Shown here: in pieces, positions 37,775 to 40,942 of the stretch
How the letters are laid out: each line of letters opens with the position of its first letter
Numbering within the stretch: the stretch's first letter is position 1
Source: Nostocales cyanobacterium HT-58-2
Lineage (GTDB): Bacteria; Cyanobacteriota; Cyanobacteriia; Cyanobacteriales; Nostocaceae
Direction: 5' to 3'
Assembly: GCA_002163975.1 (NCBI GenBank)
Contig: CP019636.1
Span: 3,235,001-3,299,000, forward strand
DNA length: 64,000 nt
Translations under genes and position numbers: made by a program
Notes under the pieces: generated by a model
What the model was told of the DNA's origin: nothing
What the model saw: only the letters and a program-made list of their open reading frames with translations
Database searches by the model: none

Positions 37775-38242
37775 ATGAGTCAATTCCAAATTCGCGAAGA
37801 TGACCTGACAGGTAAAAAGATAGCTGACCTTCTCCGGGAACATCTCGAAAATATGTATGAGATTACACCGCCTGAAAGTGTTCATGCTCTTGATTTGGAG
37901 GCATTGCGATCGCCCGATATTACTTTCTGGACGGCTTGGGAGGGTGATGAATTACTCGGATGCGGGGCACTCAAAGAACTAGATTCAAGAAGTGGTGAAA
38001 TCAAATCAATGCGTACCGCCAAGGCTCATCGACGTAGAGGTGTCGCCTCGAAGATTCTTGAACACATCATCCAAGAAGCCAAACGGCGTGGTTATGATTG
38101 CCTGAATTTAGAGACAGGGGCTTTTCCTGAGTTCGCCCCTGCACGAGCCTTGTACACACGGTATGGGTTCGAGTACCGAGGTCCCTTCGCTGAATACATT
38201 GATGACCCAAATAGTGTATTTATGACGAAAAAGCTCGCTTGA
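37775..38242 (+). CDS. GNAT acetyltransferase
   Basis: The 155-residue N-acetyltransferase has its acetyl-CoA binding region in MRTAKAHRRRGVASKILEHI (RxxGxA pattern), followed by AKRRGYDCLNLETGAFPEFAPARALYTRYGFEY, typical of the motif A-B end of small GNAT enzymes. The first 60 residues contain the variable substrate-recognition helices. It converges with the MCP gene, leaving only six bases between the stops. Substrate unknown. Confidence 0.85.
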   Translation: MSQFQIREDDLTGKKIADLLREHLENMYEITPPESVHALDLEALRSPDITFWTAWEGDELLGCGALKELDSRSGEIKSMRTAKAHRRRGVASKILEHIIQEAKRRGYDCLNLETGAFPEFAPARALYTRYGFEYRGPFAEYIDDPNSVFMTKKLA

Positions 38243-38248
38243 TCTGCT

Positions 38249-40942
38249 TCATTCTCCAGTTTTAAACACACTAACTGATGCTTGTAATTGCTGCGCCACT
38301 TCCACAGTTTGTTGCAGGGACGTAGACACAACGCGAGACGAATCAGCAGTGCGTTCTGAAGTTTTGGCAACTTCTTGCATGAAAAGAGCGACAGCCTGCG
38401 AGGTTTGAGCTTGAGAGACTGTTGTCTGAGAAATCGACTGCACTAACTCGTCAATTTGACGTGAGACTTCTACAATCTTTTCCATACTTTGCTTAACGTC
38501 TTTGACTAGGTGAGCACCCTCTAAGACCTGGGTTGTTCCCTGTTCTATCGCCTGTACGACTGCCTCGGTTTCTGATTGAATATTTTTTGCAATATGTTCA
38601 ATTTCTTGCGTTGCTTGGGCTGATTGCGCTGCTAAGCGCCCAACTTCTTGAGCCACAATCATAAAGCCTTGACTTTCTTCACCTGCACGAGAGGCTTCAA
38701 GACTCGCATTGATAGACAACAAGTTGGTTTGCAATGCAATTTCGTTAATCAAAGTCACAACTTTGGAAATCTCTTGAGATGATTCACCAAAACGTTTAAT
38801 CTTTTCGGCTGTTTCAGTAATTGTCTCTCGCAACATGAAGATGCTAGTAACAGTCCGCTCCATTGCTTCACCTGCATCCAAAGCAGTATTGGCAGACGTA
38901 CGAGCAACTTCTGCTGCTTGATGAGCACTATTGGCGACTTCTTGAATAGAAAGGTTCATTCTATTGACCGAGTCAAGAGTACAAGTAATTTCTTCAGCCT
39001 GTTGAAGTGCTTCATCCGCTAATTGACGAATAGCATCAGAGTTTTCCCCCACCGAAACATTGACCTGTTGCGCGGCTTGTTTCACTTGAATAACGATTTG
39101 CCGTAGGCTTTCGATAATGGTATTGAAAAAGTCAGCGACTATTCCGATTTGACCAGTCGTAATATTTGCTCGAGCTGTAAGGTCACCTGTGGCTACCTCT
39201 TTAATGTCACCTATAAGTTCTACAAGTTGACGTTGCAGGACTTCTTTACTACGCCTGAGTTCCTCTTCCACCTGCCTCCGTAAAGTAATGTCAGATTGGA
39301 TACCAACAAAATTGAGCACTTGTCCAGTCATGTCCTTGACTGGAGAAATGCTTAGTTCACACCAGAATGGGGTACCGTCTTTACGGTAATTCTTAATCAC
39401 AACATGACATTCTTGCTCCTGTCGTAATGCGCTACGTATTTGCTCAATAGTAGCTGGGTCAGTGTCAGGTCCTTGCAGAAATCGGCAGTTACGCCCCAAC
39501 ACTTCTTTTTGTGAATAGCCAGTCATTTTTTCAAATGCTGGATTGCAAAAGACGATGGGGTCATCTGGCTGACGCGGATCGCTAATAACAATACCATTGC
39601 TGGCAGCGGCGACTGCGCGATCGCGCAGTCGTAGCACCTCTTGTGCCTGCTGAAGTTCATACAAGAGATTTGCTTGTTCTAGGGCAATGCTAACTTGAAT
39701 GGCTAATTGCCCAAACAGAGAAATTTCTGACTTCTGCCAAATCCGAAGTCCAGAACATTGATGACCACACAATAAGCCGAGAAGCTGATTGTTGTTGAGA
39801 ACAGGTGCAACCAAATTTGCTTTGATTTGAAAGCCTTCAAGAATTTGTCGGTGAAAGTCTGTAAAGTCCGTGTCATAAATGTTATGAGTCGCCCGGACTT
39901 GACCATTTTTGTATATGTCGATGGCATCTTGGTGAAGCGGATCATGGACTGTTCTCCCTAAGATTTTTATCCAACCGTCTGCGACTGACTCTGCGATAAT
40001 AGTGCCGCTTTTGTCAGGGTTGAAGCGATAAATGATAACGCGATCCATATTCAAGGCTTGACGCACTTCACTCACAGTTGTGTCAAGAACGTCCTCTAAC
40101 TTGAGAGAGCGTCGAATACGCAGGGTAATGTCCGTAAATAACTGCGAACGTATAGCTTCTTGCTGTTTGAGTAATACTGCTTGGGTAACCATTCGCCGAT
40201 CCACGAAGGAAGTCAGCAGCGTGAAGCCGAGGATAATGAGAGTCGCAACGCCGATGCCTACAGCCAGCGCAGAAAGAGACCCTTGCATTGTCTTGGTTAT
40301 GGCAATACCAGCAACCCTAGTTGGCGTGAAAGAGGCAGCCGCCATCCCCGTGTAGTGCATTCCGGAGATTGCAATTGCCATGATGAATGCACTCGAAAGC
40401 TTGCGTCGCCTACCAGTTCTCCCCATTTGTAAACGTAATTGGAAAGCAATCGACAGCGCTACAACCGATGCAACAATGGCGATCGCCACAGAAGCCACAA
40501 ACAGCGCTGGATCATAGTGAGTCGTGGCTTCCATCTGCATTGCCACCATGCCAATGTAGTGCATGGATGCGACACCAATGCCCATCAACACACCACCAAT
40601 CAACAATTGCTGCACATTCAAAATTGGGCGACTGGTAAGGAAAAGTGCGCCTCCTGAGGCGACAATAGCAGGCAGTACAGAGAGTATCACAGTCAACACA
40701 TCATAGCCCATGGGAATCGGCAAACTGAAGGCGAGCATAGCAACAAAATGCATCGACCAGATGCCGATTCCCATAACAATCGCGCCGCCAATTAACCATG
40801 CACGTCTAGCCCATCCTTGAGACACCGTGACTCGACCTGTTAAATCGAGAGCAGTGTACGAAGCAAAGACAGCTATCACAATCGAAAGCACTACAAGAAG
40901 TGGATCGTAAGTGCTAATCATCCCTACATCTGCCTGAAGCAT
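38249..40942 (-). CDS. MHYT-GAF-PAS(LOV)-HAMP-MCP chemoreceptor
   Basis: 897 residues. The membrane part (about 10-250) is an MHYT sensor with repeated SMHFVAM, SMHYIGM and GMHYTGM motifs, proposed to bind metal or gas. A phytochrome/CBCR-like GAF domain (about 265-425, DRVIIYRFNPDKSG to LLCGHQCSGLRIW) has FTDFHRQIL where bilin-binding members carry CH, so the chromophore Cys is replaced by Phe. The PAS domain (about 440-555) contains GRNCRFLQGPDTD and NYRKDGTPFWCEL, the flavin-binding LOV signature with its photoactive Cys. A HAMP-like linker and a full MCP signalling hairpin (EIALQTNLLSINASLEASRAG) follow. It should signal through CheA/CheW; none are adjacent. A blue-light phototaxis role is inferred. 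Confidence 0.85.
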   Translation of the reverse strand: MLQADVGMISTYDPLLVVLSIVIAVFASYTALDLTGRVTVSQGWARRAWLIGGAIVMGIGIWSMHFVAMLAFSLPIPMGYDVLTVILSVLPAIVASGGALFLTSRPILNVQQLLIGGVLMGIGVASMHYIGMVAMQMEATTHYDPALFVASVAIAIVASVVALSIAFQLRLQMGRTGRRRKLSSAFIMAIAISGMHYTGMAAASFTPTRVAGIAITKTMQGSLSALAVGIGVATLIILGFTLLTSFVDRRMVTQAVLLKQQEAIRSQLFTDITLRIRRSLKLEDVLDTTVSEVRQALNMDRVIIYRFNPDKSGTIIAESVADGWIKILGRTVHDPLHQDAIDIYKNGQVRATHNIYDTDFTDFHRQILEGFQIKANLVAPVLNNNQLLGLLCGHQCSGLRIWQKSEISLFGQLAIQVSIALEQANLLYELQQAQEVLRLRDRAVAAASNGIVISDPRQPDDPIVFCNPAFEKMTGYSQKEVLGRNCRFLQGPDTDPATIEQIRSALRQEQECHVVIKNYRKDGTPFWCELSISPVKDMTGQVLNFVGIQSDITLRRQVEEELRRSKEVLQRQLVELIGDIKEVATGDLTARANITTGQIGIVADFFNTIIESLRQIVIQVKQAAQQVNVSVGENSDAIRQLADEALQQAEEITCTLDSVNRMNLSIQEVANSAHQAAEVARTSANTALDAGEAMERTVTSIFMLRETITETAEKIKRFGESSQEISKVVTLINEIALQTNLLSINASLEASRAGEESQGFMIVAQEVGRLAAQSAQATQEIEHIAKNIQSETEAVVQAIEQGTTQVLEGAHLVKDVKQSMEKIVEVSRQIDELVQSISQTTVSQAQTSQAVALFMQEVAKTSERTADSSRVVSTSLQQTVEVAQQLQASVSVFKTGE

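Follow-up and report, generated by a model that had tools for sequence, protein, structure and literature searches.

A cyanobacterial MHYT-GAF-LOV-MCP chemoreceptor as a candidate blue-light receptor in a family with variable chromophore cysteines

The window analyzed here is a stretch of 64,000 nucleotides from the genome of Nostocales cyanobacterium HT-58-2 (contig CP019636.1). On its reverse strand a gene encodes an 897-amino acid chemoreceptor with the domain order of three MHYT repeats, a cyanobacteriochrome-type GAF domain, a LOV domain and an MCP signaling domain (Table 1). The Pfam matches are MHYT (E = 2.9e-48, in three stretches), GAF (residues 282-421, 6.3e-21), PAS_9 (449-553, 3.7e-24) and MCPsignal (678-860, 4.6e-34). 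The original prediction of a chemoreceptor combining MHYT, a Cys-less cyanobacteriochrome-like GAF and a LOV domain is confirmed as one open frame by the ORF, Pfam and PDB matches. The gene is flanked by transketolase (identified by its sequence) and GNAT acetyltransferase genes on one side and by OmpA-like and K-channel genes on the other, and 11 orthologues (from genus g148, from g162 and from one g171 genome) likewise adjoin transketolase, OmpA-like and/or K-channel genes. The GNAT gene (37775-38242, + strand), located between transketolase and the receptor gene, has no match at E ≤ 1e-15 in the loci of relatives compared, some of which are short. No che genes adjoin the receptor gene, and the genome has a single full-length copy of the family, which carries the LOV cysteine only.

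Table 1. Features of the chemoreceptor gene, in window coordinates
Feature	Position	Strand	Basis
MHYT-GAF-LOV-MCP chemoreceptor gene, 897 aa	38249..40942	-	Single open frame, ATG start
Membrane region, three MHYT repeats (H65, H128, H196), aa 8-250	40193..40921	-	Pfam, AlphaFold helices
Cyanobacteriochrome-type GAF without bilin Cys, aa 262-432	39647..40159	-	Pfam, PDB matches
Phe at the bilin-binding Cys position of relatives, codon 363 (TTT)	39854..39856	-	Family alignment
LOV domain, aa 441-566	39245..39622	-	Pfam, PDB matches, AlphaFold model
Predicted adduct-forming Cys of LOV, codon 486 (TGC)	39485..39487	-	PDB and family alignments
Cys at the usual LOV Asn (YtvA N104), codon 528 (TGT)	39359..39361	-	PDB and family alignments
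Helix-loop-helix linker from LOV to MCP coil, aa 567-640	39023..39244	-	AlphaFold helices 553-584 and 597 onward; HAMP-like by eye only
MCP signaling hairpin, aa 641-897	38252..39022	-	Pfam, MCP alignment, AlphaFold
Hairpin tip NASLEASRAGEESQGF, aa 745-760	38663..38710	-	Positions matching Tsr E385, R388, E391

A LOV query of 132 amino acids matches 171 distinct PDB sequences at E ≤ 0.001, and the best 60 of these include phototropins, aureochromes, blue-light-activated histidine kinases and the label "Blue-light photoreceptor." The top match, 9vf7 (1.8e-40), is labeled only "histidine kinase" and has the same NCRFLQ motif. Among the four LOV-PDB alignments printed, GRNCRFLQGP is found in three, with Ala replacing the Cys in the fourth, and NYRKDG and FWN are present in all four. 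NCBIfam matches include the YtvA family (442-573) and a blue-light histidine kinase (440-566), both far under the whole-protein cut-offs. The reading of GRNCRFLQ and its photoactive Cys as a LOV signature holds, with Cys486 placed in GxNCRFLQ.

The domain retains N485, the adduct Cys486, Q490, N518 and Q549. Residues forming hydrogen bonds to the flavin ring in YtvA are given as Q66, N94, N104 and Q123 (PMC4041573), of which N104 is equivalent to AsLOV2 N492 (PMC10949197). Missing flavin-contact Asn and Gln residues had been named as a finding that would speak against a LOV domain; in the alignment three of the four ring contacts remain (Q490, N518 and Q549), and the N104 position is Cys528. 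The FWCEL strand, put forward as a further LOV signature, is not one, as Asn is usual here and FWN occurs in all 29 LOV domains aligned from outside the receptor family, a set picked for closeness to the window domain and not a random sample. This set comprises 27 of the 30 loci that a LOV search retrieved from 376 genomes of the order (the remaining three belong to the receptor family) together with the proteins L192 and L193 described below, and L196 and L200, which are the same gene, are counted once. Of the 43 rows of the receptor family, 28 have Cys here, seven Asn, five Ser, two Gly and one Tyr. YtvA N104 mutants are described as having a moderate photocycle effect and no destabilization (PMC4161478), and in a fluorescence screen N104I and N104S kept flavin function with the N104S signal clearly reduced (PMC4041573). 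Since these published variants keep flavin function, the window LOV domain is by analogy probably active despite Cys528. Elsewhere in the same genome (C1, 6411040-6411471) a LOV-like PAS is found in a multi-PAS protein (1464-aa frame), which keeps the Cys (NNCCFLHG), the FWN Asn and the SIQ Gln and has Ser at the first Asn and His at the FLQ Gln.

The best PDB matches of the GAF domain are cyanobacteriochrome-type GAF chains, 6oap (9.6e-37), 6bhn and several GAFs labeled "methyl-accepting chemotaxis protein"; 6oap and 6bhn we take to be cyanobacteriochromes. Phe363 lies opposite the Cys of the CH motif in the first two alignments printed, in agreement with the earlier description of a bilin-type GAF with DFH in place of CH, and His364 of the motif is retained. 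The GAF sequence is thus of cyanobacteriochrome type and the conserved bilin-linking Cys is absent. Five rows of the syntenic set of the window gene have Ser at the GAF Cys position and Tyr for the His. Both chromophore cysteines vary within the family, and a GAF domain lacking its Cys is one of the states found there.

The membrane region contains the three MHYT repeats of an MHYT sensor, and its histidines are strongly conserved: among the 42 family rows with a letter there, H65 is present in 39, H128 in 42 and H196 in 39. The AlphaFold model has seven helices in this region, predicted to be transmembrane, with the seventh continuing into the GAF domain. A PDB search with the MHYT region found nothing up to E 1. 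Judged by its sequence, the receptor is a member of the MCP and MHYT families and, with one variant contact, of the LOV family; by the Cys test it is not a working cyanobacteriochrome. It would function as a light-gated MCP.

The predicted MCP output is confirmed by a signaling domain scoring 118.2 bits against a curated cut-off of 34.6 and by an intact tip, NASLEASRAGE, that keeps positions presumably corresponding to E385, R388 and E391 in Tsr numbering. In a modeling paper an ionic lock between Tsr dimers is assigned to E385-R388' (PMC8144572). The AlphaFold model (35 sequences, pLDDT 75, pTM 0.38, with pLDDT near 50 at the MCP tip) shows the GAF and LOV cores, a helix (553-584) leaving the LOV core, and one hairpin formed by residues 597-752 and 758-891. 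The model fits a receptor in which a light-driven change of the LOV core would move the helix leading to the hairpin. A HAMP domain between LOV and MCP was considered and discarded, Pfam giving no match at E ≤ 10. Seven MCP genes of the genome score above the cut-off. Its CheW-domain matches number 11, none of them adjoining the receptor gene, and 10 sit in four loci that each also contain an MCP. The window tip is similar to those of five other MCPs in the genome, four of them in loci with CheW-domain genes. The closest MCP, encoded in a CheW-bearing locus, is 61% identical over residues 555-895 with no internal gaps in either sequence relative to the other, and this locus also has a CheA-like kinase, a CheY-like receiver and a DUF4388-receiver protein.

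The architecture, which the original prediction proposed looking for in other genomes, is found in 43 distinct family rows including the window. These rows make up a small receptor family from filamentous cyanobacteria. A search of 386 genomes across the phylum, with two candidates per genome scored, gave full-length matches in four, the window genome included, all in taxonomic family f1. A search of 217 genomes of f1, with four candidates per genome scored, shows that at least 30 carry a member of the receptor family. A scan of named genomes (best 80 loci) gave two full-length relatives, in Brasilonema sp. CT11 (75%) and Amazonocrinis nigriterrae (57%), which duplicate existing rows and were dropped; the fragment L156 was dropped for length and the incomplete L150 and L155 were kept. 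Among the 42 rows with both sites, eight have both cysteines, 12 the LOV Cys only, 15 the GAF Cys only and seven neither. A strict reciprocal retention of one Cys or the other, never both, was hinted at by the window protein and five relatives and is refuted by the eight rows with both and seven with neither.

In the family tree 33 of 40 inner branches are strongly supported, and one branch splits 18 rows, including the window, from the other 25. At least eight changes of the GAF Cys and at least three of the LOV Cys are required on the tree; as Cys is the rule in both domain families, these changes are taken as losses. The LOV Cys is missing in 23 of 43 rows, being replaced by Tyr in 22 (all TAC) and Trp in one. 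The window clade keeps the first Asn and the FLQ Gln in 18/18 rows, the LOV Cys in 17/18 and the GIQ Gln in 15/18. In the 25-row clade, where the LOV Cys is mostly gone, the first Asn is present in six rows and the GIQ Gln in three, so that the other flavin residues erode too. A tree-based test of association between the GAF and LOV cysteines is powerless, with only two supported independent pairs differing in the LOV Cys; seven pairs differ at the GAF Cys, and nearly all of these agree at the LOV Cys.

The substitution pattern was compared in non-overlapping pairs, seven in the window clade and 10 in the other. The MCP domain has a dN/dS of 0.23 [0.19-0.28] in the window clade versus 0.42 [0.35-0.51] in the other, the LOV values of 0.20 [0.15-0.26] and 0.24 [0.18-0.33] overlap, and the GAF value is 0.27 [0.21-0.35] versus 0.18 [0.13-0.24] in the other clade, which keeps the GAF Cys in 17 of 24 readable rows. 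From the LOV and MCP values, sensor and output are both constrained in the window clade, whereas in the relatives mostly without the LOV Cys the LOV domain is constrained and the MCP looser. For the MCP the difference lies in the whole domain, the tip segment alone giving 0.22 in the window clade and 0.24 in the other. The window-clade pair L126/L127 is an exception and weakly constrained (LOV 0.53, MCP 0.45). At the tip position matching Tsr R388 the window clade has Arg (12) or Lys (6) in 18/18 rows, and the other clade Trp (24) or Gly (1) in 25/25. A link between LOV loss and tip loss was rejected: LOV Tyr and tip Trp mostly occur together, yet the tip changed only once on the tree, which leaves the association without statistical weight, and three g16 rows combine the LOV Cys with an altered tip.

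In the 217-genome search all seven genomes of genus g148 have two family copies, the second copy of one (G406) being fragmented. Of the two, the one syntenic with the window gene has the LOV Cys in 7/7 and the GAF Cys in 1/7, and the second copy has Tyr at the LOV Cys in 7/7 and the GAF Cys in three of six readable rows. In three genomes (G404, G407 and G409) the copies divide the sites cleanly, one being LOV-only and the other GAF-only, and in a further three neither cysteine is left in the second copy.

The suggestion that LOV-MCP combinations are rare stands in part. In its favor, 34 further cyanobacterial MCPs whose signaling domain resembles that of the window protein all lack a LOV-like PAS within the stretch of sequence examined, many being cut upstream; against it, two GAF-GAF-LOV-MCP proteins, L192 and L193, are found in genomes G777 and G769 of the same order (family f5), the survey covering only the loci compared here. 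Five PAS-MCPs (L168-L172) were rejected as LOV-MCPs, the PAS nearest the MCP lacking the adduct Cys in all of them. No MCP match is present at the 27 outside LOV loci, most of which are cut 1.5 kb from the LOV domain, and among plasmid-borne LOV relatives none of the best 50 of 2506 is annotated as a chemotaxis protein, although "PAS domain" labels hide the output. No LOV-MCP fusion was found described in the excerpts of literature searched, weak evidence for novelty as the surveys of Glantz (2016) and Herrou and Crosson (2011) lie outside them. L192 and L193 resemble the window protein in having LOV before MCP and GAF upstream, and differ in having no MHYT match, two GAF domains, Asn at the Cys528 position and an MCP domain 29% identical to that of the window. 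The two are 96.7% identical, yet the LOV adduct codon is TGC (Cys) in one and TAC (Tyr) in the other.

Among known systems, PixJ/TePixJ/AnPixJ-type receptors share the MCP and cyanobacteriochrome-type GAF domains; we know of no PixJ-type protein with a LOV domain. The window protein differs in that the bilin Cys is absent, photosensing would be placed in the LOV domain and the gene lies outside a che locus; with neither GAF Cys nor che neighbors it is not a PixJ-type receptor, that is, a bilin-binding GAF protein of a taxis operon. PixJ1 works with CheA/CheW homologues in pilus phototaxis (PMC5812497, PMC7690835). YtvA and the LOV histidine kinases share with the window protein the LOV Cys, the first Asn, the two Gln residues and a helix running from the LOV core toward the output, which here is an MCP, and differ at Cys528. 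The outputs of 496 bacterial LOV domains are reported as histidine kinase (48%), GGDEF/EAL (21%) and short LOV (14%) (PMC8508746). A table row on cyanobacteria and Bacillus subtilis in a review of light-controlled motility lists for LOV "Regulation of c-di-GMP level" and "Possible trigger for chemotaxis," and excerpts of this review describe no LOV-MCP fusion (PMC5812497). Aer and AerC also have a PAS domain upstream of the MCP that binds flavin, as the window PAS is expected to; theirs belong to the FAD-binding redox sensors (PMC10468136), whereas the PAS domain of the window protein is LOV-type and carries an adduct Cys.

These features lead us to lean, with some reserve, toward a membrane-anchored blue-light chemoreceptor with LOV input, acting via CheW/CheA on type IV pilus motility. 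The LOV domain would hold FMN, and blue light would generate a Cys486-flavin adduct; Q549 and the post-LOV helix (553-584) may then relay the change via the HAMP-like joint to the MCP hairpin, whose conserved tip would join a CheW/CheA array and bias type IV pilus motility, for example of hormogonia. The GAF domain would no longer bind a bilin covalently and may serve as a spacer, as a dimerization module or as a binder of something else, and the MHYT region would anchor the receptor and may supply a second, non-light input. The reading is favored by the LOV homology with Cys486, N518, Q490 and Q549, retention of these features in the clade, the constraint on LOV and MCP, the intact tip, the likeness of tip and MCP domain to those of MCPs from CheW-bearing loci, the synteny and the YtvA N104 data. 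Counted against it are Cys528 as a natural variant of the second Asn, the lack of adjoining che genes, the low pTM and tip pLDDT of the model, the three window-clade rows without the GIQ Gln, the weakly constrained pair L126/L127, and the missing LOV Cys in 23 of 43 rows, which indicates that light input is dispensable in relatives. If correct, this would be a chemoreceptor under direct LOV-domain control.

An Aer-like sensor of redox or energy state, in which the flavin reports redox state, the Cys is incidental and the Tyr relatives are left with redox sensing or photoreduction, would account for the constraint that persists in the LOV domain of the 25-row clade (0.24 [0.18-0.33]) with the Cys mostly gone. 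It is in keeping with a PAS survey linking FAD-PAS and heme-PAS clusters to chemoreceptors (PMC10468136) and with Cys-less LOV proteins able to signal by flavin reduction (PMC4682037). The window PAS is closest to LOV domains, however, and redox sensing does not require the adduct Cys that 17 of 18 window-clade rows retain, making this reading improbable. We regard it as similarly unlikely that the MHYT region, sensing metal or gas, is the main input with GAF and LOV as decaying passengers. The near-invariant MHYT His and Met residues in the family and the repeated changes of the GAF and LOV cysteines point in this direction; taken as a whole, however, the MHYT region of the window clade changes faster than its LOV domain (dN/dS 0.33 versus 0.20), and the flavin residues of the LOV domain there stay together with the Cys.

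A two-colored receptor, with the GAF domain still a photosensor holding its bilin non-covalently or through another Cys, appears more doubtful still. Retention of His364, a GAF dN/dS of 0.27 in the window clade and the occurrence of both cysteines in eight of 42 rows are consistent with it, whereas the Phe at the Cys position, the Ser and Tyr substitutions in five rows of the same syntenic set, and the lower GAF constraint in the window clade than in the clade mostly keeping the Cys all argue in the other direction.

For the family as a whole, a tentative proposal, held with more doubt than the blue-light reading of the window protein, is that of three-input phototaxis receptors (MHYT, bilin GAF and flavin LOV) whose lineages shift colors by single-codon loss of a chromophore Cys. 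Duplication would have given one paralogue, the type found in the window, that became a receptor for blue light and kept an active kinase output, and a second that lost the flavin site, retained the bilin site in part and drifted in its output. The family offers a natural series (both, LOV-only, GAF-only and neither) for studying how a single receptor sums its light inputs. It also supplies naturally occurring LOV variants, with Cys at the second Asn or Tyr at the adduct Cys, and components for optogenetics.

At locus L145 of genome G543, which has four family copies altogether, two family members of the same orientation are separated by about 2 kb; one has both the GAF and LOV cysteines and the other the LOV Cys only.
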